From contig SWDS01000007.1 of assembly GCA_005116745.1 (NCBI GenBank), positions 4,587 to 68,586 on the forward strand: 64,000 bases of DNA, in the 5' to 3' direction. The notes below the pieces were generated by a model. It was not told the origin of the DNA. It made no database searches and worked only from the letters and a program-made list of their open reading frames with translations. How positions within the stretch are numbered: position 1 is the first letter of the stretch; the number at the start of each line of letters is the position of its first letter. The position numbers and the translations under genes are program-made. The DNA comes from Nitrospira sp. Lineage in GTDB: Bacteria; Nitrospirota; Nitrospiria; Nitrospirales; Nitrospiraceae. Shown here one piece after another: positions 33,871 to 54,523 of the stretch.

Positions 33871-36268
33871 CGTCGGTTGCTCCTTTCAAAATAGACAACG
33901 TTGGGCTCGCACACGACTGGGACGCCACTGGCTCGTCAGGTTGTTTTGCCGGTTCATTCTGTGACCCAGCGAGTGGGAGCGTGAAATAAAAGCGTGACCC
34001 GACCGCCGGTTGACTCTCTACCCAGATCTGTCCACGATGCATGGTGACGAGTGTCTTTGTAATCCAGAGGCCAAGTTGCGCACCCTGTGACGTGGGCATC
34101 GCTGACGGCACCCTGGAAAACTCCTCGAAAATGTTCGGCAGGTAGGACGGGTCGATCCCGCAGCCGGAGTCGGCAATACACGTTTGTACGAAGCCTGGTG
34201 GCGACACGCAAAACTCCACCGTCACACGACCGCCAGCCGGGGTGAATTTAATCGCATTCCCGATGAGGTTCCACAGAATTTGTTCCAACTTGTCGCGATC
34301 ACCTTGGACCGGTGGAAGCGACTCGGCCGACGCCACGGTAAGGGTTACGGTTTTCTCGCCGGCCACCATCTGTAAGCTGTCAGCCGTGATCGTTGCGATC
34401 TGGTGGATGCAGACTTCCTCCACACGAAGCTGGACGCTTTCGGTATCGAGACGCGACCAATCGAGCAGTTGCACGATGATTCTCCCAAGGCGGGCGACAT
34501 TGTGTTGGATACGTGTGAGATAGGTATGTTGCAGTTCGGTCAGCGGCCCCGTCACGCCGTCTAACATATTTTCCGCAAAGCTGCGAATCGCCGTCATGGG
34601 CGTTCGCAGCTCGTGTGAGACGACAGAGAGAAACGTTGACCGGTGCCGATCATGTTCCTGGAGCTGTGTGTTGGCGCGCGACAGCTCGTCGGTCCGTTGC
34701 TCGATACGCTCTTCCAGATGTTGGGTAAGCTCGGTTAAGTCAGAATAAGTCTTGGCATTGTCGATAGCAGCCGCCACGTGGCCAGCGATCGTCAGTAAAA
34801 TATGAAGATCATCTTCTCTACATTTGAGAGGACCTCGATCACCGGCTAAGTATCCGAGGATCTTGCCATGGTTCTGGAGTGGTACCGCAACGATCGACTC
34901 TAAACCTGAATGGCGCATCAATGCGAGCACTGGTGGGTATAAGCGATGAGCGACAGTTTCGATATCATGAATCAGTAGCGGTTTGCCGTGAATAAGTAGC
35001 TCCTCCGAGAAGCCGTCTTTCACGATAGGGATAGTAAGCTTTCGAGCTGCTTGCTCAATCTCCGGTGGAACTCCAATCATTCGAGCGATGGAAGCTCCGT
35101 TTCGGTCGGGGTGGTAAAGGAGAAATGCCATTCTGGAAAAACCAAGGTTCTCGACGAGTAGTTGGAGCACGGTCTCGAGCAGCTGACTCATGTTCAGCAT
35201 GCTGGTGCTTGCGATTGCGGTGCTGGCCTGATGCACCGTGGTCAAGTGCATGACCTGCCGCCGGATCGTTTTGATATTCATCGTGATGGCTTGATTGCGA
35301 TCATGCAAGGACTGCGTCATCACGTTGAACATATCGGTCAGCTGACCAACCTCATCGTGAGTGGATGCACGAAGAGCCGCTGGTGCATCATCCCCTTTGG
35401 CGAGTTGGCGAGCCGAGTTGGCGAGGATTCGGAGCGGCGTCGTAATGCGCGACGTGAGTAGTGACGCACTGAAGAGGCCTGCCGTGATAATGAGTATCGT
35501 GAGAAGCGACACATTGTGCACGACTTCCAGTAAGGCTTTCTTGGCCTGTGCATCCGTAATTCCGATCCGCACGAGGCCGACGACCGGAGAGCGTCTCATC
35601 GGCAGAGGGACACGGTTTTCTTCCACTTCGACTGAGAGCTGAGGCATGGCAGTCTCGGTCACAGATTTACGGAGGACGAGCATGGCGAAGTCGTAGAGAG
35701 TTTCCTCTCTCAGGAGAAAGGGCAGAAGCCAGTCTGAGGATTCATCTTGAGGGGTGAGCGTCTGCTCTGAGGAAAATATGAGCTGGGTCATGAGCGGAGT
35801 CGTCAGTGGAGCCTGCAGCAGTGATTCTGAGATTCGATCATTAGGATAGACCGGCTGTGGGGCTGGTTGAGGGGATCTATTGGACGGTTTCTGCGTTCGT
35901 TTGCTCTGCTGGTCCAGAATGCGGCCATCGGCTGTGGTGATGACCACATAGACGATGTGATCAATGGCCATGAGACTTTGTACAAATTGATCAAGCGTGA
36001 CGCGATCTTCAAGTACAACCCCGGCAATACGGAAGTGTTCATTGCGTACGGTGTTGGTCAGCAAGATTGTTCCCAGTTCTTCCAGGCTGTCTGTCATCGC
36101 GTGGCGCCTGGATTCTATGAAATACCAGCTCAAGGATGAGCAGGTTATGATGAGAATCAAGCTGAACAGGACCACGAATTTCATGCGGAGGCCGAAGAAT
36201 CGACCGGTCGGCCTTGATTCTGGATTCCGGTCTACCTGGAGCGTTGTGCTGCTCATGGACTGGTCCAT
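33860..36268 (-). CDS. sensor histidine kinase with periplasmic sensor, HAMP and GAF domains
   Basis: The 802-residue kinase has a first membrane segment at about 27-47 (FVVLFSLILIITCSSLSWYF), a periplasmic sensor of about 200 residues, a second membrane segment near 250-270 (LLTILIITAGLFSASLL) and HAMP. A GAF domain lies at about 355-505. A coiled coil leads to HisKA with VVSHELRTPM and an ATPase domain with DSGCGIDPSYLP and GLWITKTLV. It pairs with the sigma-54 regulator downstream (11-base overlap). Its start lies directly after the stop of the binding-protein gene, as TGAATG, so the binding protein may feed it a ligand signal. Confidence 0.92.
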   Translation of the reverse strand: MDQSMSSTTLQVDRNPESRPTGRFFGLRMKFVVLFSLILIITCSSLSWYFIESRRHAMTDSLEELGTILLTNTVRNEHFRIAGVVLEDRVTLDQFVQSLMAIDHIVYVVITTADGRILDQQSKRTQKPSNRSPQPAPQPVYPNDRISESLLQAPLTTPLMTQLIFSSEQTLTPQDESSDWLLPFLLREETLYDFAMLVLRKSVTETAMPQLSVEVEENRVPLPMRRSPVVGLVRIGITDAQAKKALLEVVHNVSLLTILIITAGLFSASLLTSRITTPLRILANSARQLAKGDDAPAALRASTHDEVGQLTDMFNVMTQSLHDRNQAITMNIKTIRRQVMHLTTVHQASTAIASTSMLNMSQLLETVLQLLVENLGFSRMAFLLYHPDRNGASIARMIGVPPEIEQAARKLTIPIVKDGFSEELLIHGKPLLIHDIETVAHRLYPPVLALMRHSGLESIVAVPLQNHGKILGYLAGDRGPLKCREDDLHILLTIAGHVAAAIDNAKTYSDLTELTQHLEERIEQRTDELSRANTQLQEHDRHRSTFLSVVSHELRTPMTAIRSFAENMLDGVTGPLTELQHTYLTRIQHNVARLGRIIVQLLDWSRLDTESVQLRVEEVCIHQIATITADSLQMVAGEKTVTLTVASAESLPPVQGDRDKLEQILWNLIGNAIKFTPAGGRVTVEFCVSPPGFVQTCIADSGCGIDPSYLPNIFEEFSRVPSAMPTSQGAQLGLWITKTLVTMHRGQIWVESQPAVGSRFYFTLPLAGSQNEPAKQPDEPVASQSCASPTLSILKGATDDAR

Positions 36269-37240
36269 TCAATAGGTCTCGTCGATCATGCTTTCCAGCT
36301 CTTTGGGAATTGTGATGCCCAAATACCGCGCCGTCTTCTGATTCACTGTGATTCTGATCCGTTGAACAGAGATTGGCTTGAGCGGCAACTGTCGTTCGCC
36401 ATTCACGATGCGCTTGGCCAAGAGACCGGCTTCTCGACCGACTTCGCCGTAGTCGATCGACATACTGAGCAGGGCGCCAAGGCGCGTAAACTCAGACGAA
36501 AAACCGATGACGGGAACCTGCTTGGCCACTGAGGATTCGAGGATGAAGCGGATCGATTCGTCCGTCAGGACGGTCGAGTCTGGAATGAGCCACAAAGCTT
36601 CCGATTCGGATAAGAGCGTCCGTAGTTGCTGTGGAACATCTTTCTCATGTTCAACCGGAAACCCCTGCAAGCGAAACTCATAGGTAGAGGCTCGCGATGC
36701 TGCCTCCTTCAACTTGGGTGCAGACTTGTCGGGGTCGTACATCATGCCGATCCGGCGCAGGCTAGGGAGGAACGTGCGCATGATCTTGAACTGACGGTCC
36801 GTCTGAATTTCCAGTAGGACTCCGGTCATATTGTCAGCCGTGAGGCGATGTTTCAAGGGGTCGAGAATCATCATATAGAGAATCGGGATATCCACGATCT
36901 CTAATTTCGCCGCCAGCGCCGCCTTCAGGCCGACCGCAACCACGACAGAAGAGTTCGTCGCGCGAATCTTCCTAGCAAGGTGTTTCCCTTGATCAAGATC
37001 ACCGCGCAGATCATATTCCATATAGGTTGCATCGCCTGGCGCTGTTGCCTTGAATCCTTCGATCGCATCGTTGTAGGCTTTCAGGTCGGATGATTTGAGG
37101 ATGGCGATTTCGGTGCCGGCAGCGGTGGCTTGGGGAGGGGCAGAACAATAAAGCGCGATGAGTATGAAGGACCCCAGCCAGATATGCAGCGAACGCAAGT
37201 TTCTCTTTCCTCGGCTTCTGAAGGGGAGTTCCGTCATCAT
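36269..37240 (-). CDS. periplasmic ABC-type substrate-binding protein tied to a two-component system
   Basis: The protein (323 residues from ATG 37240) matches the COG2984/DUF534 family of periplasmic binding proteins with two Rossmann-like lobes. After a signal peptide (LGSFILIALYCSAPPQATAA) come EIAILKSSDLKAYNDAIEGF, VVVAVGLKAALAAK and IGMMYDPDKSAPKLKEA, then VPVIGFSSEFTRLGALLSMS, a hinge and the last lobe. No ABC permease or ATPase gene lies nearby; the next genes are the kinase and the regulator. It thus probably acts as a co-sensor that hands its ligand state to the kinase. The ligand is unknown; members elsewhere bind aromatic amino acids or similar. Confidence 0.85.
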   Translation of the reverse strand: MMTELPFRSRGKRNLRSLHIWLGSFILIALYCSAPPQATAAGTEIAILKSSDLKAYNDAIEGFKATAPGDATYMEYDLRGDLDQGKHLARKIRATNSSVVVAVGLKAALAAKLEIVDIPILYMMILDPLKHRLTADNMTGVLLEIQTDRQFKIMRTFLPSLRRIGMMYDPDKSAPKLKEAASRASTYEFRLQGFPVEHEKDVPQQLRTLLSESEALWLIPDSTVLTDESIRFILESSVAKQVPVIGFSSEFTRLGALLSMSIDYGEVGREAGLLAKRIVNGERQLPLKPISVQRIRITVNQKTARYLGITIPKELESMIDETY

Positions 37241-37264
37241 CGTGTCACTCTGGCAGAATTTCAA

Positions 37265-38469: not shown

Positions 38470-39213
38470 CTATTTACTCATGGTCTGAATGGATCTGAGA
38501 TCCCAGTCCGCTACGCCGTTGAGGCCAACTTGCCTCAGGAGGGCCGCGCGCAGCCTCCGAAGCGACGGGTCCGCTGGTTCTTTTTCAATCAACGAACAGA
38601 CACAGCCCATCGCATCGTACCAGAACCCGATGAGGGCATTGGTGCGCACGCTCTCCCGGTCGCAGGTCAGGTTCACTGAGGTGATCGTCAAGCATTCGCT
38701 GAACTCGCATCGCTCGATCATCCCACCGGCGACGATATCTTCCGAATGGGAGTCTGTGTTGCGCCTGGCCGATACGAACCAGCGGTATTGGACGTTCGGT
38801 TCAAGCGTGAGTCCTAGAGTCTTGAGATCAATCGATTGGACCCCTGCTTTCATGGGAGTAGGAAGGGGGCCTTCATAGAGGGGGGCAATTTTTTGGGTGT
38901 CGTTGAGTGTAAATCGTAAGGGATAGGCCGTTGACTTTGAGAGATACCAATTGAGTGTGGGGGTTTGTCTCACAGTCAGGCCTACGTGGTCAGGCACCAA
39001 CGCGACAAGTTCTGGCTCATGGCCTTCAGTCCCCCGCAATGTGCCTCCGACTCGCGCGCGAGGAGTCAGTTTCTTGGGCAGTGTGTAAATGGGAGGCTGC
39101 TGGTCATCCTGTTGACCGGCCGTCGCTGCTGTCGGCGCATCGGCGGCGTTGAGGAGGTAGACTTCCGCGATAGTCAGGAAAAGGCTCAACCCTATGATTA
39201 ATACGCACTTCAC
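38470..39213 (-). CDS. DUF928 domain protein, last gene of the secretion operon
   Basis: The 247-residue product starts at GTG 39213, which has AAAGGAGGATC just before it; a longer frame overlaps the upstream gene. A signal peptide (VLIIGLSLFLTIAEVYLL) is followed by a short linker. The DUF928 domain begins near PRARVGGTLRGTEG, with VALVPDHVGLTVRQTPTLNW and YRWFVSARRNT, ending in a helical region with three or four Cys (ERCEFSECLTI, GCVCSLIEKEP). DUF928 genes travel with CHAT and haemagglutinin genes in cyanobacteria and Nitrospirota. The function is unknown; a periplasmic partner in exoprotein handling is plausible. Confidence 0.85.
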   Translation of the reverse strand: MKCVLIIGLSLFLTIAEVYLLNAADAPTAATAGQQDDQQPPIYTLPKKLTPRARVGGTLRGTEGHEPELVALVPDHVGLTVRQTPTLNWYLSKSTAYPLRFTLNDTQKIAPLYEGPLPTPMKAGVQSIDLKTLGLTLEPNVQYRWFVSARRNTDSHSEDIVAGGMIERCEFSECLTITSVNLTCDRESVRTNALIGFWYDAMGCVCSLIEKEPADPSLRRLRAALLRQVGLNGVADWDLRSIQTMSK

Positions 39214-39226
39214 GGTGATCCTCCTT

Positions 39227-41572
39227 TCACAGCCAATTATTGAGCAGCAGAAATGGCGACCAGTAGGCCGGATGTTCATAAATCCTGTCGCTCAACAGCT
39301 TCAACTGCGCACGTTGGAGTGCCACGGCTTTCGAGCGATCGGGATTGCGCAGTTGTCGATAAAATTCAGAGATTAGTGTGGCCGATGCTTCGTCATTGAT
39401 GAACCAGAGGGTGGCTAAGGCGCTGCGGGCTCCGGCCTTCAGCGCGACGCCGGCCAGGCCAAGCGCGGCACGATCATCGCCGACACCGGTTTGGCAGGCG
39501 CTCAAGGTCAATAGTTCGAGTGGCTCTTGCCGGAACCGAAAGAGGCCGATCAGTTGGTCGAGGGTCTGCATCGTCAGTTTCCCATCGAAGGTCAGGAGAA
39601 ACGAATCGTTCACCTCAGTCGAGAACCTGCCGTGCGTGGCGATATGCAGGCCACCATACCGTCCTTCACGCAATTCCCGTTCCAGTCTGGAGGCTTGAAA
39701 GGCGTTGTTGAGCAGTTGGTCGCTCTTATAGTGCCGTTGGATGGATTCGATCTCGTCTGCGACGTAGGGAAGAGCGGGAAATCCCTGGACCGATTTGGTA
39801 AGGCCCGCTGTGAGAAACCGGAGCTTGTCGCGGTTCAGCGGTCGTGGGTCGGTCAACGTCAAGCCGGGTGTCATGGCGAGCGCGAACTTGCTGATCAGAA
39901 ACGATGCACCGTCGTGGAGCGCAGCCAGTGGGATGGTTCGAAGGGCGCTATCCGGCACGAAGACCAACGTGGTGATGTTCAACCGTGAGAGGTCAGTTTC
40001 GAGCGGGCGGATCAGCCAGTCGTACAACTGTTGCGCATGGGGCACATATTCACGCGTCGTACGTTTTTCAATCAGGCGGCGAAATTCCCGGATTTCCTGT
40101 GTCAATCGCTCAGCAGTCACAGGCACTGAGATACGCTTCAGACCGGACGGAAGGCTCATGAGCAGTTCCAGCCGTGCACTGAACATAATGGGATAGATCA
40201 CGGCGGTGTCCGAGGACAAGCGATCAAATGTGGTCAGCCTGGACCGCACGGCGTCGACACAGTCATCTTTGAAATAGTCCCGCAACTCAGCTGTTTTGTA
40301 GGCTTCGATCGCATCGCGAGCGGAGAGCAAATACCCTTCGGCTGCTTTAGCGTCTTCCGTCAGTGAGGCTCGTTGGAGCAAGAGGTCGGCCAGCTCAAAG
40401 AATAGAGGCTTCACGGTGTCTTGGTCGGCGACATGACGGTCAGAAGAGGCGTGCGCGAGTTCAACGCGAAGCGGTTGAAGTGTCGATGCAGCTTGTCGAT
40501 AGGAATCGATGGCCTTATCCAATTGCCCGGTTGCGGCCAGCTGGCGTCCTAACTGCCATTGCCAACGATAGAGTGACTCGGGAGCATCCACTGCTTGCGC
40601 GACGAACAGGGCCCGCCTAGTGAACTGCAACGCCTCGTCCATGCGAAATTCTGTTTCATAGAGATGTCCAAGATATCCGAGGGCATAGGACAGCGTTCGT
40701 TTGTCGCCCTGTTGCTCAGCGAGGGTGGCCGCTTCCTGGAGCACACCCGCGGTTCGCAGCACGAGCGGGTCATGAGCTTGTGGCAGCTGAGGGGTGAGGT
40801 GTTGGTAGGCCAGCGCGATGCCGATCAAGCCGAGTGATTGATCACGAGATGGGGGCAAGTCTTTTAAGTGATCAAGCGCGTCGTCGAGGGCTACGCGACT
40901 GTTGGCTGGTTGGCCGAGTCGCAGCAGGACTCGCGCGGCGTTCGTGCGGGCTGTTGCGGCGAGCAGGAGAAGTCCAGCGCTCTGTGCGTGAGACACGCTG
41001 TCCTGAAATGCGTCCAGTGCGCCCTTGTCCTGCTGTTTCAAGACTGAAAGAATACCAAGATCATTCAGTGTGGTCGCCATGAGGGGCGAGGCCTTCTGCT
41101 TGTTTGCGATGTCGGCTGCTTGCTGGAGGTATTCCGAGGCCTCGGGAAGTTGCCGCAGGGCCAAGTAGATCCGTCCCAGATGCCCAAGGATGGGAGCTTC
41201 GATGAGCGGATCACCACTCTTCTGTACGAGCGCAAGCGCGAGCTCCAGTGACTGGAGTGCTTGTTTGGATTGTCCCAAACCCATGGAGGCCTGAGCCGAG
41301 AGGACCAGGGCCTCGACCTGTGCCGGGGCGTTTCCAGAACCCTTGTAGAGCTCCACGGCTTGTTTCCAATGAGACAACGCTTCACCGAATGCTCCACGTT
41401 CGAACGCTTGGGCACCTTCTTTCATGGCTAGGCCGGCAGGAGATGATGTTTCATGAGAGTCTGATCGTGTCACGATGAGAACCGGGATGGTTGCCAACAA
41501 CAGTATGATGGTTCCTCGTAGAACGAACTGAATCAATGATCGATTGAAGGTCGGCATGGAGTCTCTCGTCAT
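39227..41572 (-). CDS. TPR-CHAT (caspase-like) protein with N-terminal membrane segment
   Basis: The 781-residue product has a signal or anchor helix (IQFVLRGTIILLLATIPVLI), then about 10 TPR-like helical repeats over 45-420 (QAFERGAFGEALSHWKQA and similar), and a C-terminal CHAT domain. The CHAT catalytic dyad is intact: His647 in HIATHGRF and Cys693 in LSACQTGVG. CHAT proteins are caspase-clan proteases. The anchor suggests that the protein faces the periplasm, where the exoproteins pass. ATG 41572 overlaps the tpsB stop as TAATG, which ties expression to the pore gene. The protease substrate is not known; the co-encoded exoproteins are the natural candidates. Confidence 0.88.
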   Translation of the reverse strand: MTRDSMPTFNRSLIQFVLRGTIILLLATIPVLIVTRSDSHETSSPAGLAMKEGAQAFERGAFGEALSHWKQAVELYKGSGNAPAQVEALVLSAQASMGLGQSKQALQSLELALALVQKSGDPLIEAPILGHLGRIYLALRQLPEASEYLQQAADIANKQKASPLMATTLNDLGILSVLKQQDKGALDAFQDSVSHAQSAGLLLLAATARTNAARVLLRLGQPANSRVALDDALDHLKDLPPSRDQSLGLIGIALAYQHLTPQLPQAHDPLVLRTAGVLQEAATLAEQQGDKRTLSYALGYLGHLYETEFRMDEALQFTRRALFVAQAVDAPESLYRWQWQLGRQLAATGQLDKAIDSYRQAASTLQPLRVELAHASSDRHVADQDTVKPLFFELADLLLQRASLTEDAKAAEGYLLSARDAIEAYKTAELRDYFKDDCVDAVRSRLTTFDRLSSDTAVIYPIMFSARLELLMSLPSGLKRISVPVTAERLTQEIREFRRLIEKRTTREYVPHAQQLYDWLIRPLETDLSRLNITTLVFVPDSALRTIPLAALHDGASFLISKFALAMTPGLTLTDPRPLNRDKLRFLTAGLTKSVQGFPALPYVADEIESIQRHYKSDQLLNNAFQASRLERELREGRYGGLHIATHGRFSTEVNDSFLLTFDGKLTMQTLDQLIGLFRFRQEPLELLTLSACQTGVGDDRAALGLAGVALKAGARSALATLWFINDEASATLISEFYRQLRNPDRSKAVALQRAQLKLLSDRIYEHPAYWSPFLLLNNWL

Positions 41573-43386
41573 TAGAAGACCTGGACGACTGCCTGGAGAT
41601 GGATGCCATGGTCTTGGAGGTTGCCGGCAGGATGGGTCACGTGATTGAGCGGCACCCCCCAATAGAGTTCAAACCTCGCTCGATCTCGTGGCAAGACAGC
41701 CCAACGCAATCCCAGTCCGACACTTGCTAAGGTCTGGGGATCGGGAGTTTCGCCTTTGGTTTGCCAGGCTCGACCGACGTCCACAAATTGAGCAAATTGC
41801 AAGAGCGGTTCACCACTAGCATATCGGATGAGCGGAAATCGCGATTCGACGGAAAAGAGAAAGCCATTGTCTCGGATTAATGTATTTTCGCGATACCCGC
41901 GAACACTGAATCGTCCTCCCAGGGGGATCTGCTCCAACGGAAAGAGCCGATCGTTGGCCAATTGTAAATTAAACTGTCCCAAGAGCTGCATGCCCCACCA
42001 GTCGTCAAACCGTCGAACAGCCTGGAGCTGTCCCAGCCAGGAAAAGAAGCGACCGTCCGGCAAAGGACCGCTCGGTGAGATGCCGGAATTCGTGGTGGCA
42101 TTCAACACATCCAGTCCCACGGAAAATCGAGAGCGTGCTGCGATGACCGACGTGGCGGTGCGATGTACGTACTCCTGAACGAAGCGCAGAGCGCTCACGG
42201 AACTGACGCCGGTGTCCGATGAGCCGTTGATAAATGGCGACGGTGAGCCAGGGTTGTCAAAAATAGACGTCACTTTATTGTAGAGGCGTTCGCCCGTGAT
42301 GGCGATGGCCAGTTCATCGGTCAGCGTTCGATAAAGTGGATGCCGGAGCGTGAATCCGATGATTTCGGATGTGGAGTTGATGTCCAGGGCTCGAAATTGA
42401 CTCTCGACGACGGCGAATTCGTTCCGACGATAAGAGGCGGTGAAAGTCGTGTCGTAGCGGTTGATCGGGAGCGTGTAGGCAACATCGATAACAGGATGCA
42501 CTCCGCGCGAGCCGCCGTAGGTGATGCTCAGAGGATCTCCATGGCCGGTCACATTTTGATGGGCAACCGTCATCAGCCCTCGCTCGGCTCCGACGGCCGG
42601 TGTCTGGTAGTTGCTGAACTCCAGCCACATCTTCCAAGGACTCTGTTCTTTGACTTTGACGTTCAGGATGCTTTGGCCGCGCTGGTCGCCGGGACGCAGT
42701 TCAGCATTGATCCGTTCAATGCGGGGATCTTGTTGGAGGAACTGCAACCTCGTTTGGAGTGGGGCCATCTGCAGCGGGGAACCGGCCCCCAACGCAATGC
42801 GGTCACTGAGATACCCTCGGCGAAACCAGTTCGTTCCCTCGATGTCGATTCGTGCCAGGCCCCCCTCGACGATCTGAATCTGAATCACCCCATCTTTCAC
42901 GTCTTGATCAGGGATGACGGCACCGGACGTAATGTAACCCTTATTGACGTATAAGAGCGTGAGTGCGAGCCGTAACTGTTCCAGATCTTCAGTGGCGAGA
43001 CTACGGCTTTCATAGGGTTTGGTGACGGCGTTGATTTCCTCGCTCGAGAAGACTGTATTCCCTGTGACATGGATCGTCTTTACAAACACGTGGATCTGGC
43101 CGAGCTGTTGCTGCGCACCGTCCTCCGGTGATGTCGGTGGCACCGGTGGCAGCACGGGGCTCGGTGGAGGCATGGAGGGTGGTGTGAATTCTTTTTTGAG
43201 TGGGGCAGGGGGCTCACCGGATCGCAGTGTGGGATCGAAGACAGGAGGAGTGACCTGAGGAGCTCCCTGCGCAAAAACCGGCGAGGATGTCACTAGGGTT
43301 GCCATAAGCATACCGCTGGACAGGAATGCTGGGACGATATACTGACGCCGGGCTCGATGCACCGATCTACCAAGGTCGACTGTCAT
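41572..43386 (-). CDS. TpsB pore of a two-partner secretion system (ShlB/FhaC type)
   Basis: The 604-residue protein has a signal peptide (SSGMLMATLVTSSPVFAQG), a Pro-rich linker (about 45-90), two POTRA domains (the first with IHVTGNTVFSSEEI, the second near GGLARIDIEGTNWFRRGYL), and a 16-strand barrel with the loop-6 motif GGRFSVRGYREN. The last residue is Phe (VVQVF), as BAM substrates require. It should export TpsA exoproteins from periplasm to surface. The start overlaps the tpsA stop as ATGA, so the partners are coupled. It is the only TpsB in the window although there are two TpsA genes. Confidence 0.95.
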   Translation of the reverse strand: MTVDLGRSVHRARRQYIVPAFLSSGMLMATLVTSSPVFAQGAPQVTPPVFDPTLRSGEPPAPLKKEFTPPSMPPPSPVLPPVPPTSPEDGAQQQLGQIHVFVKTIHVTGNTVFSSEEINAVTKPYESRSLATEDLEQLRLALTLLYVNKGYITSGAVIPDQDVKDGVIQIQIVEGGLARIDIEGTNWFRRGYLSDRIALGAGSPLQMAPLQTRLQFLQQDPRIERINAELRPGDQRGQSILNVKVKEQSPWKMWLEFSNYQTPAVGAERGLMTVAHQNVTGHGDPLSITYGGSRGVHPVIDVAYTLPINRYDTTFTASYRRNEFAVVESQFRALDINSTSEIIGFTLRHPLYRTLTDELAIAITGERLYNKVTSIFDNPGSPSPFINGSSDTGVSSVSALRFVQEYVHRTATSVIAARSRFSVGLDVLNATTNSGISPSGPLPDGRFFSWLGQLQAVRRFDDWWGMQLLGQFNLQLANDRLFPLEQIPLGGRFSVRGYRENTLIRDNGFLFSVESRFPLIRYASGEPLLQFAQFVDVGRAWQTKGETPDPQTLASVGLGLRWAVLPRDRARFELYWGVPLNHVTHPAGNLQDHGIHLQAVVQVF

Positions 43387-45965
43387 GAAGGGCAGCCTGT
43401 AGAGCCGGTCGCAAACGCCCGCACCAGAAATCCTGGTGGGGTCAGTCGTCGCAGTGAGAGAATTGTGGGATCGTTCTTGTGCGTGGCTATTGATGGTAAT
43501 CTTTTTGATTCTGTCTTTCGCGCCATTAGACCAGAGGCATGCTCTGTGTCCTTTCCGGTCCAGTGTTCCATCGAAATTGGGCTATTGAGCCATCCGCCTG
43601 GTTCGGTAGGGAGTGTGTCTCGTCCGGCAAGAAGAAAGGTACTCTGTTCGCCGCCGGCCAAAGCCACGCACCGGTTTTGTAGCAACACCTGAGGCGGACT
43701 CGTTTTGGACACGAGCTGGCCGACCGTTCCACTCAAGTTCGATGTCGGCGATTGAATGGTCACCGTTCCGTTTACCCCACGCCCGGCATCCGCATTAACG
43801 ACCGTGTTGGCATCAGATACAAATGAATCTGCCCTGATTGCGATGCGACCACCTGTGCCTTGGTCAGCCTGTGCCAGAACAGTACTGTTCTGGAAGAGAA
43901 CGAGTTTTGGATCAATCGAGATATTCCCTCCACCACCTGGCCCGTCAGAAACTGAAGCACTAAGGGTACTGTCGACAAGCCGGATACGATCGGTGGCCTG
44001 GAGATTGATGTTCCCACCGCTGGCTTGCTTGGCTTCGGTTGTGATTGAACTCTTTCCCATGAGATCAAGCTGTTGGCCTGCATTGATTGAGATGGTGCCG
44101 GCGTCGGCTGGTCCCGTGCTACGAGCAGTGATCGAAGCACCATCGGTCAAAGTCACCTGATCCGTCGCAGTTATATTGATCGAGCCGCCAATGGCACTGG
44201 CACTCGTGCCGGTCGTTTCTGCTGATATCGTGCCACCGTTCTGAAGGGAAAGAGAGCGTGTCACTAGATCTATGGCTCCTCCAGGACCGATGCCTTTAGT
44301 GCCTGTAAAAATTCCGCTGCCAGGTCCATCCACTGTTACCGAATCGCTTGAGCCTACGAGACCTTGAATACTAATCCCTCCACCTGCACCAGTGCTGGCC
44401 GCCTCAGCATTAGCAGAGAGCTTGCTTCCTTCCAAGATTTGTATCTCCGAGGCTTTAATGATCATGTCGGCCGCACGGGCCTTACCTAAGGTAGTAGTGC
44501 TCTCAATTTCTGAGCCGCCAGTTAGTCTAAGTCGACCCCTCACCAGAATATCTATGGGGCTTGCCACTTGTGTCGTTTTATTATCGCTATCAATTCGAGA
44601 TGCTTGGCTCAACTCGAGATTGTTGGCGGTAATCCTCACGCCTCCTATCCCTTTAGCCTCTCGATCTGTAGAGGGGAAGATAAGTGAGGAAGTTTCAAGG
44701 CGAATGTCTCCATTCTGCGCCTCTATTTCAATGCTTCCGGCATTTCTGCCTCCAGTGAATGCTTGGGAAGTTATGGTGGCATCATTAGAAAGAGTAACGT
44801 TTCCTTGGCTGGTTCTAAATGTGATATTTCCAGCATCTCTCGAAGCAACAAATGTTTGGGACTCGACTCTCGCATGAGAATCCATCTTGATGTCTCTTGC
44901 AGCTCTTAAAGTAATATCGCCCGCATTTGCCGTGGCGGTTGTATATGTGCCAATCAAAGCAGAGTTCTTGAGTGAAATAGAAGTCGTATCGAACGAGATG
45001 CCTCCACTACCTGCGAAGATTTTTGAGTTATCAACAACCAGGTGACCTCCTCGGATGCGAATCGTACCGCCATTCTGGTTGCTGGTGTCGATCTTTGATT
45101 CATGAGAGATGTGAACTGTACCAAGGGTCCCTGGAAATTGCCGAATAATATTTTCCGCAGGGGCTAAGGTTCCTGCCAAAAGTTCTCCTGGCGACGCGAT
45201 GCTGCCGATATAAACTTGATTTCCTGGTGCTGATGGATCAGCTTTGTCAATCAGCATGCCTGATTGAACGGTGATGTTGCCACCAACAAGGGAAATTGAT
45301 TGCCCAGGCTGCATGGCTAACGTAGTTCCTTGAGCTTCAATGGCTACCGGATTTTCTCCGAGGAAGCCAAATGCTGCGACGGAAGCACTGGTTAATAGGT
45401 TGGTGGCTGTCGTGTTTGCATGGAAAATTCCTGCATTTGAGCCATTGGCATTAGCAAGCCGCAGGTAATCTGCTGTCGTAAAGGCGACGGAACCGCTTAC
45501 ATTTAATATCGCGCTGGGTCCGAAAACGATCCCAGCTGGATTCATGAGAAAGAAATTCGTGCCTGGATAACTTGAGGTATCGATGGTGCCATAGATACTC
45601 GAAAGGCTTCCTCCAGTTACCCGGCTGAGAATGGCGTCGGTGTGGAGAGATGGTGTCGTGTTCAGAAACTTGGCCGTATCACCGCCTCCCACATTGAATT
45701 GCTTGAAGCTATGGAAAAGATTTGTTCCGCTGCCCTGGTCTGATCTGGTTCCTCCGACGATCAAGATCGTGTGATCCTGTGTTATCGTCCTAGTTCCGAG
45801 GTCACCAGCACCTGTCGTGTAAGTGATGGTAGTAGTAGGTGTTTCAGCAAAAACAAACAAGTCTTCCACCAATACCGAACCAAATATCAAGAACAATACT
45901 GTTGCCAGTTTGTTTACGCTAACAGGCAGATGAGTAATTGTACCCATATTGTTATCTGGCCCCAT
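43383..45965 (-). CDS. filamentous-haemagglutinin-like exoprotein (TpsA), copy 1
   Basis: The 860-residue protein has a signal region (LATVLFLIFGSVLVEDLFVF), a TPS domain at about 45-290 with FHSFKQFNVG and FFLMNPAGIVFGPSA, and a long right-handed beta helix of short repeats (for example NNLELSQASRIDS). A separate C-terminal region of about 130 residues closes the protein. This tail is nearly identical to that of copy 2 and has two cysteines, Cys766 and Cys858, 92 residues apart. Export should use the downstream TpsB. It may act as a surface adhesin or biofilm fibre; that is inferred from the family. The start may be the second ATG (residue 7). Confidence 0.93.
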   Translation of the reverse strand: MGPDNNMGTITHLPVSVNKLATVLFLIFGSVLVEDLFVFAETPTTTITYTTGAGDLGTRTITQDHTILIVGGTRSDQGSGTNLFHSFKQFNVGGGDTAKFLNTTPSLHTDAILSRVTGGSLSSIYGTIDTSSYPGTNFFLMNPAGIVFGPSAILNVSGSVAFTTADYLRLANANGSNAGIFHANTTATNLLTSASVAAFGFLGENPVAIEAQGTTLAMQPGQSISLVGGNITVQSGMLIDKADPSAPGNQVYIGSIASPGELLAGTLAPAENIIRQFPGTLGTVHISHESKIDTSNQNGGTIRIRGGHLVVDNSKIFAGSGGISFDTTSISLKNSALIGTYTTATANAGDITLRAARDIKMDSHARVESQTFVASRDAGNITFRTSQGNVTLSNDATITSQAFTGGRNAGSIEIEAQNGDIRLETSSLIFPSTDREAKGIGGVRITANNLELSQASRIDSDNKTTQVASPIDILVRGRLRLTGGSEIESTTTLGKARAADMIIKASEIQILEGSKLSANAEAASTGAGGGISIQGLVGSSDSVTVDGPGSGIFTGTKGIGPGGAIDLVTRSLSLQNGGTISAETTGTSASAIGGSINITATDQVTLTDGASITARSTGPADAGTISINAGQQLDLMGKSSITTEAKQASGGNINLQATDRIRLVDSTLSASVSDGPGGGGNISIDPKLVLFQNSTVLAQADQGTGGRIAIRADSFVSDANTVVNADAGRGVNGTVTIQSPTSNLSGTVGQLVSKTSPPQVLLQNRCVALAGGEQSTFLLAGRDTLPTEPGGWLNSPISMEHWTGKDTEHASGLMARKTESKRLPSIATHKNDPTILSLRRLTPPGFLVRAFATGSTGCPS

Positions 45966-45978
45966 ACCTCATGCATTT

Positions 45979-46209
45979 TCATTTACGGCACACGCAACCC
46001 TGTGGTTTATGTGTACATGTGTCACCGTTCCAATTACATGAGGGAGACGCGGGTCCTGTGGGTAGATCTTCCTTGTCTCCCTTTGGCCCGCATTGGGCAT
46101 CGACCTTCACCTCTATCAAGGGTGTATGACATGCTGGGAGAACCGTAAGAAACAATAAAGAAAGTACTAACCCTGAACCGATCTGAAACCACCTGCGTTC
46201 TTTCTTCAT
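45979..46209 (-). CDS. small cysteine-rich lipoprotein
   Basis: The 76-residue product starts with a lipoprotein signal (SGLVLSLLFLTVLPAC); the lipid-bearing cysteine is near residue 27. The mature part, about 50 residues, has five cysteines (CGPKGDKEDLPTG, SCNWNGDTCTHKPQGCVC), which suggests disulfides, and ends in CRK. GGAGAGAG precedes the ATG. It is located just upstream of tpsA copy 1 and may be translated in the same operon. The function is unknown; a chaperone or tether for the cysteine-bearing exoprotein is conceivable. Confidence 0.75.
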   Translation of the reverse strand: MKKERRWFQIGSGLVLSLLFLTVLPACHTPLIEVKVDAQCGPKGDKEDLPTGPASPSCNWNGDTCTHKPQGCVCRK

Positions 46210-46264
46210 GTTCTCTCTCCTTCGTTATGTATAGGGATGAATAGGCCAGTCAGCCATTTGCCTT

Positions 46265-47011
46265 TTAGCGCGGACTGTCGCCGGCATTATTTGCCTCAGG
46301 AGTAAGTTTCAGGAATGCTTCCTTGGCCGGCAAAGGACGTCCTTTCGTGAAGAGGTAATCAGAAGCCAGAGGCACTAATTTAAGGTCTGTATCATCCACA
46401 TAGCCCAGAAAGTTGCGGTTAAGCGATGGAATCGATACAAGAATGCCTTGTGTGTGAGGGGGTAATATTTCTGTCAGTTGCTTAATCAGTTTAGGACGCC
46501 CCCAGCGGGTGATACGCCATCCTGTTGGTTGGTCCGTTTTGCTCATTTCTCCATGTTCCTCTAACAGCCGTATGGTTACTGAGGATTCAACCTTGTTTTT
46601 GATCTCAACAGGAAAGAGCAGTTGATTTGTAAATATCAATAGATCAGATGTCTCTTTGCCAGGATCAAACTCGCGTAGATTCTTCAGGCCCACATAAAAT
46701 ATAAAGAATGGAAGGGCCTTGGGTTGTATCCTGGCACTCTTTGGGTCAGTTCCAAATCCCAGTTCCTTAGCCCGAAAGAGATTGTTCCCCAATTGTGAGG
46801 AAACTATTTCTAGATTCTGGTTTAGCGCGAGACGGGTAGCCTGCTCATCGGCCTTGAAGAAAGCGTTTAGCAACATATTAAAATCAAGCTGACTATTTGG
46901 CTTTTGGGTTGTCGGTATGGATTGAACGATCGGCTCGGCAATTGCGCTTGTGCTGGAAAGTACTATTATGCTGATCGTGGCGGTCAGAGATAAAAATGAT
47001 CGTATTGTCAT
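46265..47011 (-). CDS. exported protein of unknown function in the secretion operon
   Basis: The 248-residue product has a signal peptide (SFLSLTATISIIVLSSTSA with likely cleavage after AIA). The mature part is mixed helix and strand (QLDFNMLLNAFFKADEQATR; FFIFYVGLKNLREFD; TIRLLEEHGE). I recognise no family. Its ATG overlaps the stop of the papain-like lipoprotein gene as ATGA, so the two are translationally coupled and probably work together. The segment KLIKQLTEILPPHTQGIL-VS could bind a partner, but this is only a guess. Confidence 0.65.
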   Translation of the reverse strand: MTIRSFLSLTATISIIVLSSTSAIAEPIVQSIPTTQKPNSQLDFNMLLNAFFKADEQATRLALNQNLEIVSSQLGNNLFRAKELGFGTDPKSARIQPKALPFFIFYVGLKNLREFDPGKETSDLLIFTNQLLFPVEIKNKVESSVTIRLLEEHGEMSKTDQPTGWRITRWGRPKLIKQLTEILPPHTQGILVSIPSLNRNFLGYVDDTDLKLVPLASDYLFTKGRPLPAKEAFLKLTPEANNAGDSPR

Positions 47012-47817
47012 GGCTTGCCTGTGGATATAGGAACAATCTGCACATACGTTCGGTCATGAGAAAATTCATAGGACCAACCTGGTTTCTTTGCAGAACCACG
47101 GACAAACTCGTCAAAGGTTAGATCCTGTGGATTATCATCTTCATTGGGGTCTTCTATTTCGACTACCCGTTGTAGGCCAGCACTGGCTGGTGACTCTCGA
47201 TAGCCGGTGACGACAAGGGTGTGCTTACCGCCTCCACTCCACTCAATGACAGAAATAAAAGGATAGTCGTTGCATATCTCTGTCTTTAAAACGTCCCAAT
47301 TGTCGAACCGACCATCCACCCACTCGTAGTCAAATTGATAGTTATCGAGGACCCAGTGTGGCCAACCCCCTCGAACACAGGTCCATGGAGTATCAATAGA
47401 ATCAGGGGAATTCTTTCTTTCACAACAATTGGCTCCACCCAAACGAAGGCCAAAAACATTTTTCACAATGTCGCATTGGGGGGCGGTAGGTTCGGGTTGT
47501 ATCTTCTTTTTGTTGCGGTATTCCATTACCGTCCGACTCGATGCCGCCCAGCACCAGGCTATCGTTTGTTGCTTTTCGTGATTAATGGGCAATGAACGGT
47601 CAGGCGGGCACACCGGTCTTTTACCTGGCCTCGAAGCATGGAGTTCCTCAAGCTTTTCGATCGAAATAGATGGCTTATTTGGCAAAGACTGCCACTTATC
47701 AAGACGACTAGTATCTGAAGATGTCACTGTGACATCGACCTTCACGCATGCTGAAGTGAGCCCAAGGCACAACGCAATGCACAGTCCAAGGGTTTTCTGC
47801 ATGGTCATTCCCATCAT
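47008..47817 (-). CDS. papain-like cysteine protease lipoprotein
   Basis: From ATG 47817 (AAAGGA upstream) the product has 269 residues. A lipoprotein signal ends in LGLTSAC, with the acylated Cys24. A papain-fold domain follows, with the nucleophile Cys89 in TIAWCWAASS, preceded by a Gln/Trp-rich turn, then His199 in GGGKHTLVVTGY and Asp223 in EIEDPNED, in the order Cys-His-Asp/Asn. It resembles the AvrRpt2/C70 type of papain-like proteases. The protein is lipid-anchored in the periplasm and encoded just upstream of the exoprotein genes. It could cleave the TpsA tail or another envelope protein. An upstream start at 47934 has no ribosome site. Confidence 0.8.
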   Translation of the reverse strand: MMGMTMQKTLGLCIALCLGLTSACVKVDVTVTSSDTSRLDKWQSLPNKPSISIEKLEELHASRPGKRPVCPPDRSLPINHEKQQTIAWCWAASSRTVMEYRNKKKIQPEPTAPQCDIVKNVFGLRLGGANCCERKNSPDSIDTPWTCVRGGWPHWVLDNYQFDYEWVDGRFDNWDVLKTEICNDYPFISVIEWSGGGKHTLVVTGYRESPASAGLQRVVEIEDPNEDDNPQDLTFDEFVRGSAKKPGWSYEFSHDRTYVQIVPISTGKP

Positions 47818-48012
47818 CTTTGATCGATCCTTTACTGTCCGCACCCCACTATGCCGAGTAACCTTGTTTCCATTGTGTGCTCTGAGCGACATCTCCTCAC
47901 TGCCTGATTGAAAAATTCTAACTAATAATTTCACACAGTATCTTGTGGCTCTAGTTTGCGTAGGTCCACGTGTCTAGATTGTGCCCTGTACTATAGAGTC
48001 CTTCGGCCTAAG

Positions 48013-48213
48013 TCAAGTTGTAATATCCTCGCCACGGCTTTTTGTTCTTAGCCGAGTCAAGGGGAGGTGCCGCACTTTCATCGATACGTCGTTCCACTGG
48101 CTTGTGCTCATGTTTTCCATGTCGAGCGTGGTGTTTTTCAACAAACGAGGCTTGAGTAAGACGAATCGAACATGGTCGTTGAGATTCACTAGCTCTCCGA
48201 ATGTCGTCATCAT
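48013..48213 (-). CDS. small protein, unknown function, with a strong ribosome site
   Basis: The 66-residue frame starts at ATG 48213 or, with better spacing, at the second ATG (48210), both directly after AGGAGAGGG. The product is soluble and starts TTFGELVNLNDHVRFVLLKP; a basic C-terminal part has RHLPLTRLRTKSRGED. No family is recognised. It lies between tpsA copy 2 and the papain-like lipoprotein gene on the same strand. The fine ribosome site argues for a real gene despite its size. Confidence 0.55.
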   Translation of the reverse strand: MMTTFGELVNLNDHVRFVLLKPRLLKNTTLDMENMSTSQWNDVSMKVRHLPLTRLRTKSRGEDITT

Positions 48214-48398
48214 CCCTCTCCTAACGTGATCGGCCTTTTAGCCCTATGATCTGGTAGCAACAGCAAAATGCAGGCCATATCACCAGACCCGAATGGGTGG
48301 TCCCTACATATCATGAAAATACGTAGGCTATGGTGTGGGTTATGCCCCTTCACTCTGGGCAGGATTGATGATGGTGGATGCGCGAGCTGAGAGGGAAG
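48214..48398. other. intergenic stretch without a gene, between the small ORF and motif B
   Basis: No gene seen. It is likely the promoter region of the small ORF and perhaps of the papain-like operon. A short inverted repeat flanks 48296-48330, but I cannot name a site. Confidence 0.35.
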
Positions 48399-48440
48399 CT
48401 GAATCGAAAAGGATTCAGGGTGGATCTAAACCGATACACC
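48399..48440 (+). repeat. dispersed palindromic motif, copy B
   Basis: CTGAATC-GAAAAG-GATTCAG, followed by GGTGGATCTAAACCGATACACC. The order and spacing match copies A and D. It lies 60 bases downstream of the tpsA copy 2 stop. Confidence 0.65.
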
Positions 48441-48499
48441 ACACATCATCTTGAGCATCGCTCGCCGTCGAAGATCACAACTGTCTCAATTGTGGACAG

Positions 48500-51304
48500 T
48501 CAAGAAGAGCAGTCTGTGGAGCCACTGGCAAATGTTCGCACTAAGAAACCTGGCGGCGTCAGCCGTCGGAGCGATAGCACGGTAGCGTTGTCTTTTAGTG
48601 TAGCCAGTGATGGCGATGACTTGGACCCTCGGTTTCGCGCGATGAGGCCAGAGGCATGCTCCGTGTTCTCTCCGGTCCAGTGTTCCATCGAAATCGGGCT
48701 ACTCAGCCAGCCACCTGGTTCGGTGGGGAGGGACTCTCGTCCAGCAAGGATAAAGGTGCTCTGCTCGCCACCAGCCATGGCGATACAGTGGTTATGTAAG
48801 AGTACCTGCGGGAGACTCGTCTTCGATGCAAGTTGTCCGACCGCACCACTCAAATTTGATGTCGGCGATTGAATCGTCACGGTGCCACTGGGGCCGCGTT
48901 GCGAGGAGGCGCTTACGACGCTGGTAGAGTCAGCCAAGAACAGGGGAGTGACGAACGTAATGTTTCCTCCGGCCCCTCCGACCGCTTGCGCAGTGACAGT
49001 ACTACCCTGCAAGACCACCACCTTGGGATCGATGAAGATGTTCCCGCCGCTGCCGTCGGTGCCACGAACGGAGCTGCTGAGGGTGCTATTCACGAACCGG
49101 ACCTGGTCGATGGCCTGAATGGTGATATTGCCTCCATTTGCCTGCGTTGACTCGGTAGCCGTCGTGATGGAAGAGCCGTCTCGCACTTCCAATTGCTGGC
49201 CAGCGTTGAGGGTGATATCACCCGCATTGCCGGCGGCTGTGCCGATACTGCCGGCCCTGATCGAGGCATGGTGCGTCAGCGCTACCCGATCCGTGGCTTG
49301 GATGATGATGGATCCGCCGGTCGCGGTGGGGCTAGTCCCGCTTGTTTCGGTGGAGATTGTACCGCCTTTATCGAGGGTAATGGTGTTCGCGCGAAGCGTG
49401 ATCGTGCCGCCTAAGCCTTGCCCTTGCGTATCGGTGAAGATGCCACTGCCGGACCCGTCGATGTGGATGGATTCAACGGAATGCGTAAGGCCGTGGACCG
49501 TCACTGTGCCGGCTGAACCAGTCGGGGGCGTTTCGGGAAACTCCACCAGACTGCGACTGGTCACTCTTCCGCCAGACAGCAGCTGAAGGCGGTTGGTAGT
49601 AATCGTAATCAGGCCGGCGTTTCCGGTGAGGCTTGTTGTGCTGGAGATGGTGCCGCCGTTCTCGACCATGACCAAGGGAGCATTGATCAATACGTGTCCG
49701 GCATCACCGGACGAAAACTCCATGCTGTTGCTGACGAGTTGTGTGCCGGATCCGGAAACTCTCACGGAATCGGTCGCCCTGACCGAAATGTTGCCGGCGT
49801 CTCCCGTGCTGCCGCGCGAGGTGCTGTTCAGCTGGCTGGCACCACTGAGGCTCAGTCGTTCCGTTCTGATCAATATCTGTCCGGCCGGCCCTTGGGTATT
49901 GACGCCGTCACCAAGAGTTTCACTCACGAGTCGGCTGGCGTCAGACAGGGTTACATCCTGCGCGTGACTTTCTGCTCCGGTGAGTCCTCGAATCGTGATG
50001 TCTCCTCCACGTCCTTCGGCTTGTGTGCCTGTGAGAACAGAACTGTTCGTCGCGAGGGTAATCTGATTCCCTTGAAGATCCACATTTCCCGCGGCACCAC
50101 GTCCTCCAGTGGCAGTCACGATGTTCGATTCGGCCTGCAATAGAATGGTGGGTGTTGTGACACTGACATGTCCCCCGCCTCCAGCGCCCATTGTCCTTGT
50201 GGCGATCGAGGAATTTGCGCGCAGGGCTACACTCTCTTCCGAAATGATGTGGACGTCGGCGCCAGGCTCAGTGCCCGAGGTGGCGGATACCATCTGACTG
50301 CCCGTGTTAAGCACGATGGTTCCGGGAGGCCCAAGGCGCCCAGCGGTGCTGATTGTCGCCTCGCTCACATCTAGAACTAATTGGCCTCCTTGAATTGAAA
50401 CCCTGCTCGTCTCGCGGACATTGACGGTTGAGCCTGGTGCCAAGACGATGGAACCGAACGAGGTAAATGAAGCCTCGTTCAGGTTCGGAACAGACTGAAG
50501 TGTCATTGCATCGAATTCTCCGGGGGATACTCCGCTGGCCAACCGAATGGTGCCGTTCGGTGCGGAGAGTTGTGCTCGTTGGACCGTGCCATTATCCCGA
50601 GCGTCGGGTCCAATGGCGATGGTTCTTCCAACCAACGAAATCTCTGACGCGATCAGTTCGCTGCCCTGGATGGTGATGGTACCGGGATTGGCACTCAAGA
50701 ATCCGTAGGCGGCGATAGGCGTCGTCGACAGCAGGGCGTCTGCTGCCGCATTGGGAACAGCATGGAACCGACCATTGTCGGTGAAGCGCACATAGTCTGC
50801 TGTTGCAAAGGCGACCGATCCCCCTACGTTCAGTGATGCCTTGGGACCAAAGACAATACCAGCTGGATTCATCAGAAAGAGATTGGCCTGCCCAAACCCA
50901 CTGGTTTGAATGACGCCAGAAATAGTGGAGGGCTGCCCTCCGATGACACGGCTGAGAATAGTCGTCGTATCCAAACGGGTGTCGTTCAGAAAGTTTGCGA
51001 TAGCGCCCGTGGGAACATTGAAGATGCCGAAACTGTGAAACAGGTTTGTGCCCACTCGGGTTCCACCGGTGATGTCGTATTGCATTCTTCCAGTTGGTGG
51101 AGTCGAGGAGAGATCAACCTGCGTTGTAAGCCCTGACGGTGTAATGGGAGGTGCCGTTTGAGCAAACCCTGGTACGCACCAGGGGCTTGGCAGATAAAAC
51201 ACCATCGCCAGAAGAATACAGCCTCTCCATCTGGAGTAGGCTACGGGTGGAGTCGGGGGAGTACCCGACTGCGTCAGATGAAGCTCTGGTGTTATGACTC
51301 GCAT
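48500..51304 (-). CDS. filamentous-haemagglutinin-like exoprotein (TpsA), copy 2
   Basis: From ATG 51304 the product has 934 residues. It carries a signal region (RGCILLAMVFYLPSPWCVPGF), a TPS domain at about 50-280 (FHSFGIFNVPTG, LFLMNPAGIVFGPKA), a beta-helix stalk and the same cysteine-flanked C-terminal tail as copy 1. The two tails share nearly all of their last 125 residues, without gaps, including LPTEPGGWL, SPISMEHWTG and LRRLTPPGFLVR. No tpsB follows it. The few bases after its stop still resemble the tpsA-tpsB junction of copy 1, which suggests that copy 2 came from duplication of the pair and lost its pore gene. It probably uses the TpsB at 41572. Confidence 0.92.
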   Translation of the reverse strand: MRVITPELHLTQSGTPPTPPVAYSRWRGCILLAMVFYLPSPWCVPGFAQTAPPITPSGLTTQVDLSSTPPTGRMQYDITGGTRVGTNLFHSFGIFNVPTGAIANFLNDTRLDTTTILSRVIGGQPSTISGVIQTSGFGQANLFLMNPAGIVFGPKASLNVGGSVAFATADYVRFTDNGRFHAVPNAAADALLSTTPIAAYGFLSANPGTITIQGSELIASEISLVGRTIAIGPDARDNGTVQRAQLSAPNGTIRLASGVSPGEFDAMTLQSVPNLNEASFTSFGSIVLAPGSTVNVRETSRVSIQGGQLVLDVSEATISTAGRLGPPGTIVLNTGSQMVSATSGTEPGADVHIISEESVALRANSSIATRTMGAGGGGHVSVTTPTILLQAESNIVTATGGRGAAGNVDLQGNQITLATNSSVLTGTQAEGRGGDITIRGLTGAESHAQDVTLSDASRLVSETLGDGVNTQGPAGQILIRTERLSLSGASQLNSTSRGSTGDAGNISVRATDSVRVSGSGTQLVSNSMEFSSGDAGHVLINAPLVMVENGGTISSTTSLTGNAGLITITTNRLQLLSGGRVTSRSLVEFPETPPTGSAGTVTVHGLTHSVESIHIDGSGSGIFTDTQGQGLGGTITLRANTITLDKGGTISTETSGTSPTATGGSIIIQATDRVALTHHASIRAGSIGTAAGNAGDITLNAGQQLEVRDGSSITTATESTQANGGNITIQAIDQVRFVNSTLSSSVRGTDGSGGNIFIDPKVVVLQGSTVTAQAVGGAGGNITFVTPLFLADSTSVVSASSQRGPSGTVTIQSPTSNLSGAVGQLASKTSLPQVLLHNHCIAMAGGEQSTFILAGRESLPTEPGGWLSSPISMEHWTGENTEHASGLIARNRGSKSSPSLATLKDNATVLSLRRLTPPGFLVRTFASGSTDCSS

Positions 51305-52888: not shown

Positions 52889-54519
<1,631 letters not shown>

Positions 54520-54523
<4 letters not shown>

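Follow-up and report, generated by a model that had tools for sequence, protein, structure and literature searches.

The maturation or release of TpsA tails, the C-terminal ends of the exoproteins exported by two-partner secretion (TPS), is understood in very few systems. In Bordetella, FhaB is exported by its TpsB partner FhaC and its C-terminal part is handled by the periplasmic proteases DegP and CtpA, with SphB1 acting at the surface (PMC8263021). The known maturation proteases are encoded outside TPS operons, in keeping with a review of these systems according to which genes for such proteases are apparently not found in TPS operons (PMC5422565). Here we analyse a locus of a Nitrospira genome (3.86 Mb), located on the minus strand at 38470-51304 of a stretch of 64,000 nucleotides (hereafter the window), in which two TpsA exoproteins and a TpsB transporter are encoded together with a predicted protease containing tetratricopeptide repeats and a CHAT domain (TPR-CHAT) and an exported DUF928 protein. 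The TpsA-TpsB-CHAT-DUF928 core is a real unit, which we read, with a probability of roughly 55%, as a TPS variant equipped with its own maturation protease, in which a periplasmic TpsA tail is handled, and most likely cut, by TPR-CHAT.

Both exoproteins, TpsA1 (48500-51304, starting at ATG 51304 within an open reading frame (ORF) that itself opens at GTG 51352) and TpsA2 (43383-45965), have a visible signal region and a TPS domain (8e-32 and 4.5e-32 in Pfam; PF05860 and TIGR01901 match both), and they are the only PF05860 proteins of the genome. Domain matches and sequence divide TpsA1 into signal peptide, TPS domain, beta-helix passenger and C-terminal tail. The two proteins are 41% identical overall, but their final ~115 residues are nearly identical, which bears out the shared tail recognised in the original prediction, made from the window alone; this tail recurs in other phyla. 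It begins behind the last beta-helix coil and spans 48500-48847 in TpsA1 (core Cys 48785-48787, conserved Arg 48737-48739, terminal Cys 48509-48511) and 43383-43730 in TpsA2 (core Cys 43668-43670, Arg 43620-43622, terminal Cys 43392-43394). The consensus, L..LL...CAAR.GG..SSF[VL]..GR[DG]GLP..P....SP, is followed by a variable linker, and long tails add a cysteine near the end. Among 92 distinct tails the Arg is conserved at its position in 80. Because these tails were chosen by a pattern that demands the core Cys, only the counts of the second Cys and of the passenger cysteines are informative: the former lies within the last 16 residues in 72 of 77 long tails, and the passengers are nearly Cys-free (75 Cys per 78,137 residues, none in 60 of the 92). 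TpsA2 has two cysteines in all, both in the tail, and the two tail cysteines of TpsA1 are its only ones beyond the signal region. The terminal Cys is absent from 14 of 15 short tails and from the fused forms described below.

The tail is also retained in short TpsA proteins of ~440 residues in which the passenger is almost gone, again with an adjacent CHAT gene; at five loci (L130-L132, L136 and L139), TpsA proteins of ~420-480 residues, composed of a TPS domain, a Pro-rich linker and the tail, lie beside a second CHAT type. Tail-less TpsA proteins of ~1400-1550 residues in several Nitrospiraceae (L114, L119, L120 and L123) share another conserved end, VRVKRGVVIQVDVKPQ, and constitute a second TpsA class without CHAT. 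One further genome (G086) has a TpsA in two overlapping frames of 540 and 635 residues (L044:1398-5121) with intact copies alongside, likely a pseudogene or an assembly error. We also considered the locus as a contact-dependent inhibition system (CdiA/CdiB/CdiI) and rejected this reading because the TpsA C-terminus is a conserved tail and not a variable toxin domain.

The TPR-CHAT protein (39227-41572) has an N-terminal hydrophobic segment and TPRs, and its CHAT domain matches PF12770 at 3.7e-57. The His/Cys dyad had been predicted to be intact, and indeed H677 (39632-39634) and C723 (39494-39496) are present in the motifs HIATHG and LSACQT. The dyad is conserved in 121 of 126 homologues and the hydrophobic segment in 92 of 103 standalone CHAT proteins of suitable length; with its CHAT (clan CD-like) fold and dyad, the protein is a predicted peptidase. 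An extra cysteine in the linker between the TPRs and CHAT (C468 in the window, 40259-40261) is present in all 75 aligned TPS-type CHAT proteins. By group, it is found in 29/29 from Nitrospirota, 78/78 GTDB loci having that region, 10/10 Desulfobacterota fusions, 11/11 adjacent cyanobacterial CHATs and 7/7 CHATs beside short TpsA. None of the 16 tail-less cyanobacterial fusions has it, nor does any of 17 CHATs taken from other contexts; all of these keep the catalytic Cys. Cyanobacterial plasmid CHATs without adjacent TPS genes also carry it, which makes the linker Cys a clade trait; a locus-level correlation between linker Cys and tail was accordingly discarded, since it holds by clade only. 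The CHAT tree places the tail-less fusions, with moderate support (88/80), as the sister group of the cyanobacterial CHATs that go with the tail, so that joint loss of tail and linker Cys would be one independent contrast. One contig filed as uncultured Nitrosospira (L159) contains a full locus with papain-like, ExpP (see below), TPS, CHAT and DUF928 genes; its CHAT groups within Nitrospira, and the contig is thus likely mis-binned.

The association of tail and CHAT was followed across 118 Nitrospirota genomes. The tail was sought with the profile A5, because a strict regular expression had overlooked the short TpsA class and returned one false match (G058). TPS genes were found in 42 genomes, CHAT in 50 and DUF928 in 26. 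TPS and DUF928 coincide in 23 genomes (Fisher p 3e-10, shared descent ignored), and every one of the 26 DUF928-bearing genomes has CHAT. The tail occurs in 25 genomes, all with CHAT, compared with 4 of 17 genomes in which TPS is tail-less (p 9e-8, again ignoring shared descent). Counted by protein, CHAT lies within 15 kb of the TPS domain in 43/48 cases with the tail versus 4/38 without. Two or more of these four genes are broken or cut off by a contig end, and in one a tail can be recognised that the profile missed. Orphan tail TpsA genes are confined to genomes that carry CHAT. In 20-kb regions most loci of the Nitrospira family have the order TpsA-TpsB-CHAT-DUF928, and other families are rearranged (CHAT-DUF928-TpsA, or convergent TpsB-TpsA and DUF928-CHAT).

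Outside Nitrospirota, a broad sample of the Desulfonema phylum (148 genomes) gave a tail match in the centre genome only, and a closer sample of 116 genomes from the order of Desulfonema magnum was then adopted. Here the tail is present in 25 genomes, 24 of which have a tail-type CHAT scoring >200 bits; the single tail-only genome is a weak tail match, and none of the 116 has a tail-type CHAT above this score without the tail. DUF928 occurs in 16 genomes of the order, 15 of them among the 24 with tail and CHAT, and is therefore frequent yet not obligatory. A CHAT-domain scan of 84,980 species genomes yielded 80 loci, in Nitrospirota, Pseudomonadota, Desulfobacterota, Verrucomicrobiota, Planctomycetota, Methylomirabilota, Myxococcota, SAR324 and Cyanobacteriota; in the 46 with at least 14 kb of sequence, TpsA or TpsB accompanies CHAT in 40 and DUF928 in 36. 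A tail search of plasmids gave no match. The co-occurrence proposed for tail, TpsB, CHAT and DUF928 thus holds strongly in Nitrospirota, and that of tail and CHAT also in the order of Desulfonema magnum.

A joint function of CHAT and the exoprotein is supported independently by gene fusions. In Desulfobacterota and SAR324 a single ORF runs TpsA, tail, TPR-CHAT, and in the order of Desulfonema magnum 27 such frames with tail and CHAT were found in 10 genomes. At 11 joints inspected, the tail core directly precedes the TPRs, with no second signal peptide or hydrophobic segment in between; had two separate genes been joined by loss of the stop codon, such a segment would remain. The catalytic motifs are recognisable in 9 of these 11 fusions (L231 and L234 failed the search patterns). 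In the tree, fused CHATs are interspersed among unfused ones, implying that fusion or fission occurred repeatedly. An apparent TpsB-CHAT fusion (L178) proved to be an artefact of an N base. Given the fusions and the near-exclusive co-occurrence, a functional link between tail and CHAT is very likely.

The conserved dyad, the Sec-type export of CHAT and its fusion behind the last exported segment make cleavage in or near the tail the cheapest mechanism. We propose that TpsB exports the beta-helix of TpsA while the C-terminal tail would remain in the periplasm, and that TPR-CHAT would be taken to this compartment by the hydrophobic segment at its N-terminus or, in other lineages, would arrive there as a fusion just behind the tail of TpsA. 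The TPR superhelix would bind the tail, and CHAT would most likely cut within the tail or close by, possibly on the C-terminal side of the conserved Arg in G-R-[DG], freeing or maturing the exoprotein; DUF928 would serve as a periplasmic adaptor, and the papain-like lipoprotein and ExpP would be an optional, lineage-specific extra. The tail disulfide, periplasmic retention, cleavage and its site are all features that we infer. More tentatively, and with considerable doubt, the portable two-Cys tail and a dedicated periplasmic TPR-CHAT, whether fused or encoded apart, might form a substrate-protease pair that controls exoprotein release throughout a widespread TPS variant, with redox control through the linker Cys.

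Several observations weigh against tail cleavage by CHAT. The dyad is incomplete in two of the CHATs encoded next to short TpsA proteins, with Ser in place of the catalytic Cys in L136 and Gln in place of the His in L139, indicating that catalysis is not kept everywhere, and binding without it may suffice in some lineages. An AlphaFold2 model of the fused SAR324 protein (predicted local distance difference test, pLDDT, 89.7) predicts TPR-CHAT well but gives the tail low confidence (pLDDT 37-66) and does not place it in the CHAT active site. Some CHATs of the tail clade accompany DUF928 or CHASE2 with no adjacent TpsA, TpsA-CHAT fusions of cyanobacteria lack the tail, and shared descent inflates the co-occurrence. 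Among these cyanobacteria, Oscillatoria princeps (G121) has at least 15 tail-less TpsA-CHAT frames in addition to separate tail-TpsA, CHAT and DUF928 loci; one Oscillatoria genome (L220-L229) has about 15 tail-less TpsA-CHAT single chains and about 70 CHAT matches.

The most substantial alternative sees the tail as an HMW1/HxuA-like periplasmic anchor, locked by a disulfide, that would plug TpsB and hold the exoprotein at the surface; CHAT would bind the tail, possibly by way of its linker Cys, as a latch or quality-control factor without cutting. We consider this rather unlikely, even though the cysteine distribution agrees with it: the passengers are Cys-poor whereas the second Cys is kept in most long tails, both TpsA proteins of the window have exactly two tail cysteines outside the signal region, and a similar periplasmic disulfide loop is described for HMW1 and HxuA (PMC5422565). 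The linker Cys points the same way: practically every CHAT that goes with a tail has it, as do some CHATs without an intact dyad, and none of the other CHATs or tail-less fusions counted above does. Its presence in cyanobacterial CHATs without adjacent TPS genes speaks against this reading, as does the retention of the His/Cys pair in nearly all CHATs. No protease of this kind figures in the descriptions of HMW1-type anchors, and an intramolecular loop cannot be universal because the short tails and fusions lack the terminal Cys. Anchoring and cutting are also compatible: the cysteine pattern fits a disulfide-locked anchor, for which CHAT would be the releasing activity.

It is improbable in our view that CHAT senses the export state of TpsA/TpsB, with the tail as its signal, and cuts not the TpsA but another protein of the envelope, for instance DUF928 or a regulator. 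This idea draws on Craspase, in which TPR-CHAT cuts a partner protein upon a signal (PMC11106740), on the resemblance of DUF928 to MtxA, which has been proposed to act in periplasmic signalling, and on the CHAT-DUF928-CHASE2 loci without adjacent TPS genes; however, the tail is directly fused to TPR-CHAT, and DUF928, missing from many genomes of the Desulfonema order with tail and CHAT (present in 15/24), cannot be an obligate substrate. That the genes are neighbours by descent only, with no joint mechanism, is very improbable: the tail-type CHAT does form one clade, so that genome counts are not independent, but the association spans at least eight phyla, several gene orders (CHAT upstream, downstream or convergent) and fusions, and orphan tail TpsA genes track the presence of CHAT in the genome.

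The genes of the locus are transcribed in the order TpsA1, papain-like lipoprotein, ExpP, small Cys-rich lipoprotein, TpsA2, TpsB, TPR-CHAT, DUF928, and the set of genes anticipated on the minus strand was recovered from ORFs and Pfam matches. TpsB (41572-43386) matches PF08479 (POTRA_2) and PF03865 (the ShlB barrel) and is kin to CdiB (structure 6wim, E 1e-18) and FhaC; TpsA proteins with a TPS domain and a nearby TpsB define a type Vb (two-partner secretion) gene set, for which export is predicted. The anticipated linkage by overlaps stands in part: ATGA overlaps join papain-like gene to ExpP and TpsA2 to TpsB, and the CHAT ATG at 41572 shares one base with the TpsB stop, but a gap of ~0.57 kb separates TpsA1 from the papain-like gene, and the locus may therefore be two transcripts. 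The DUF928 protein (38470-39279) matches PF06051 (E 3e-31; 109 bits against a cut-off of 26), and its start may lie inside the ORF, at GTG 39213. Its model (pLDDT 88) combines an Ig-like sandwich with TPR-like helices.

The papain-like (C70/C39_2-type) lipoprotein (47008-47934, likely start ATG 47808 or 47802) matches Peptidase_C70 and C39_2 in Pfam, and no solved structure was matched by sequence. The order Cys-His-Asp, predicted earlier, was confirmed (Cys 47551-47553, His 47221-47223, Asp 47149-47151): Cys and His are conserved in 15/15 aligned homologues, and the third residue is Asp, or Asn in two. The lipoboxes LTSAC and LPAC were found at the locus, with lipobox cysteines at 47746-47748 in this protein and 46129-46131 in the small Cys-rich lipoprotein (45979-46209). 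ExpP (46265-47011), an exported protein of 248 residues for which a Pfam search gave no match, always adjoins the papain-like gene, and the two form a cassette upstream of a tpsA. ExpP was detected in 13 of 147 Nitrospiraceae genomes, and in every ExpP region examined the papain-like gene lies beside it with a TPS-CHAT locus adjoining, which makes the cassette locus-specific but optional. Genetic linkage thus upholds the papain-like lipoprotein as a proposed member of the system, but in a minority of loci, and its role in the TpsA system is a matter of linkage only.

Beside the locus, a large serine recombinase (Resolvase and Zn ribbon; 52889-54523) overlaps at its 3′ end a tRNA-Arg on the opposite strand, possibly the integration site of an island. 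Downstream of the locus and on its strand, a possible signalling module (32422-37264) comprises an ABC_sub_bind family protein, a sensor histidine kinase and one further ORF.

A literature search (DUF928; CHAT domain with two-partner secretion or hem-/haemagglutinin), with most subscription papers outside its scope, found no account of the unit, in agreement with the original prediction; the unit can be called new only provisionally, and public annotations do show the gene neighbourhood. The locus offers a widespread, genetically linked candidate protease and the region that is likely to be its substrate. For DUF928 it provides a fold and a context, and it suggests a possible role for many surface proteins of cyanobacteria, Nitrospira and Desulfobacterota. 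It would also extend the TPR-CHAT proteases, best known from Craspase, to the cell envelope. Craspase TPR-CHAT (Csx29, type III-E CRISPR) has the same TPR and CHAT fold and His/Cys dyad, and the SAR324 TPR-CHAT model matches its structure (7y84; Z 31.4 over 566 residues, 5.5 Å) and separase too. However, Craspase is cytoplasmic and acts with Cas7-11, whereas the Nitrospira-type CHAT is encoded with TPS partners, begins with a hydrophobic export segment and carries an additional, invariant linker Cys; no Cas7-11/gRAMP gene lies beside it, its neighbours being TPS genes, and the rest of the genome was not searched for Cas7-11. The C-terminal domain of MtxA of Magnetospirillum (4z29) is the best structural match of the DUF928 model (Z 10.1, 160 residues, 4.8 Å), but a profile search found no sequence link between the two. 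At some loci each of them has CHASE2 genes nearby: L034 and L290 contain CHAT, CHASE2 and DUF928 without an adjacent TpsA, company such as that reported for mtxA of magnetotactic bacteria. The Haemophilus pairs HMW1A/HMW1B and HxuA/HxuB, compared by description and not by sequence, resemble the present system in a short C-terminal two-Cys region proposed to be periplasmic, which both TpsA proteins of the window and most long tails possess; their operons have not been described with a CHAT protease, and the second Cys is missing here from short tails and fusions. FhaB, like the TpsA proteins studied here, is a TpsB-dependent exoprotein with a C-terminal part subject to periplasmic proteolysis, but its proteases are an HtrA, a C-terminal processing protease and a subtilisin, whereas here the candidate is a CHAT protein encoded in the operon or in the same chain.

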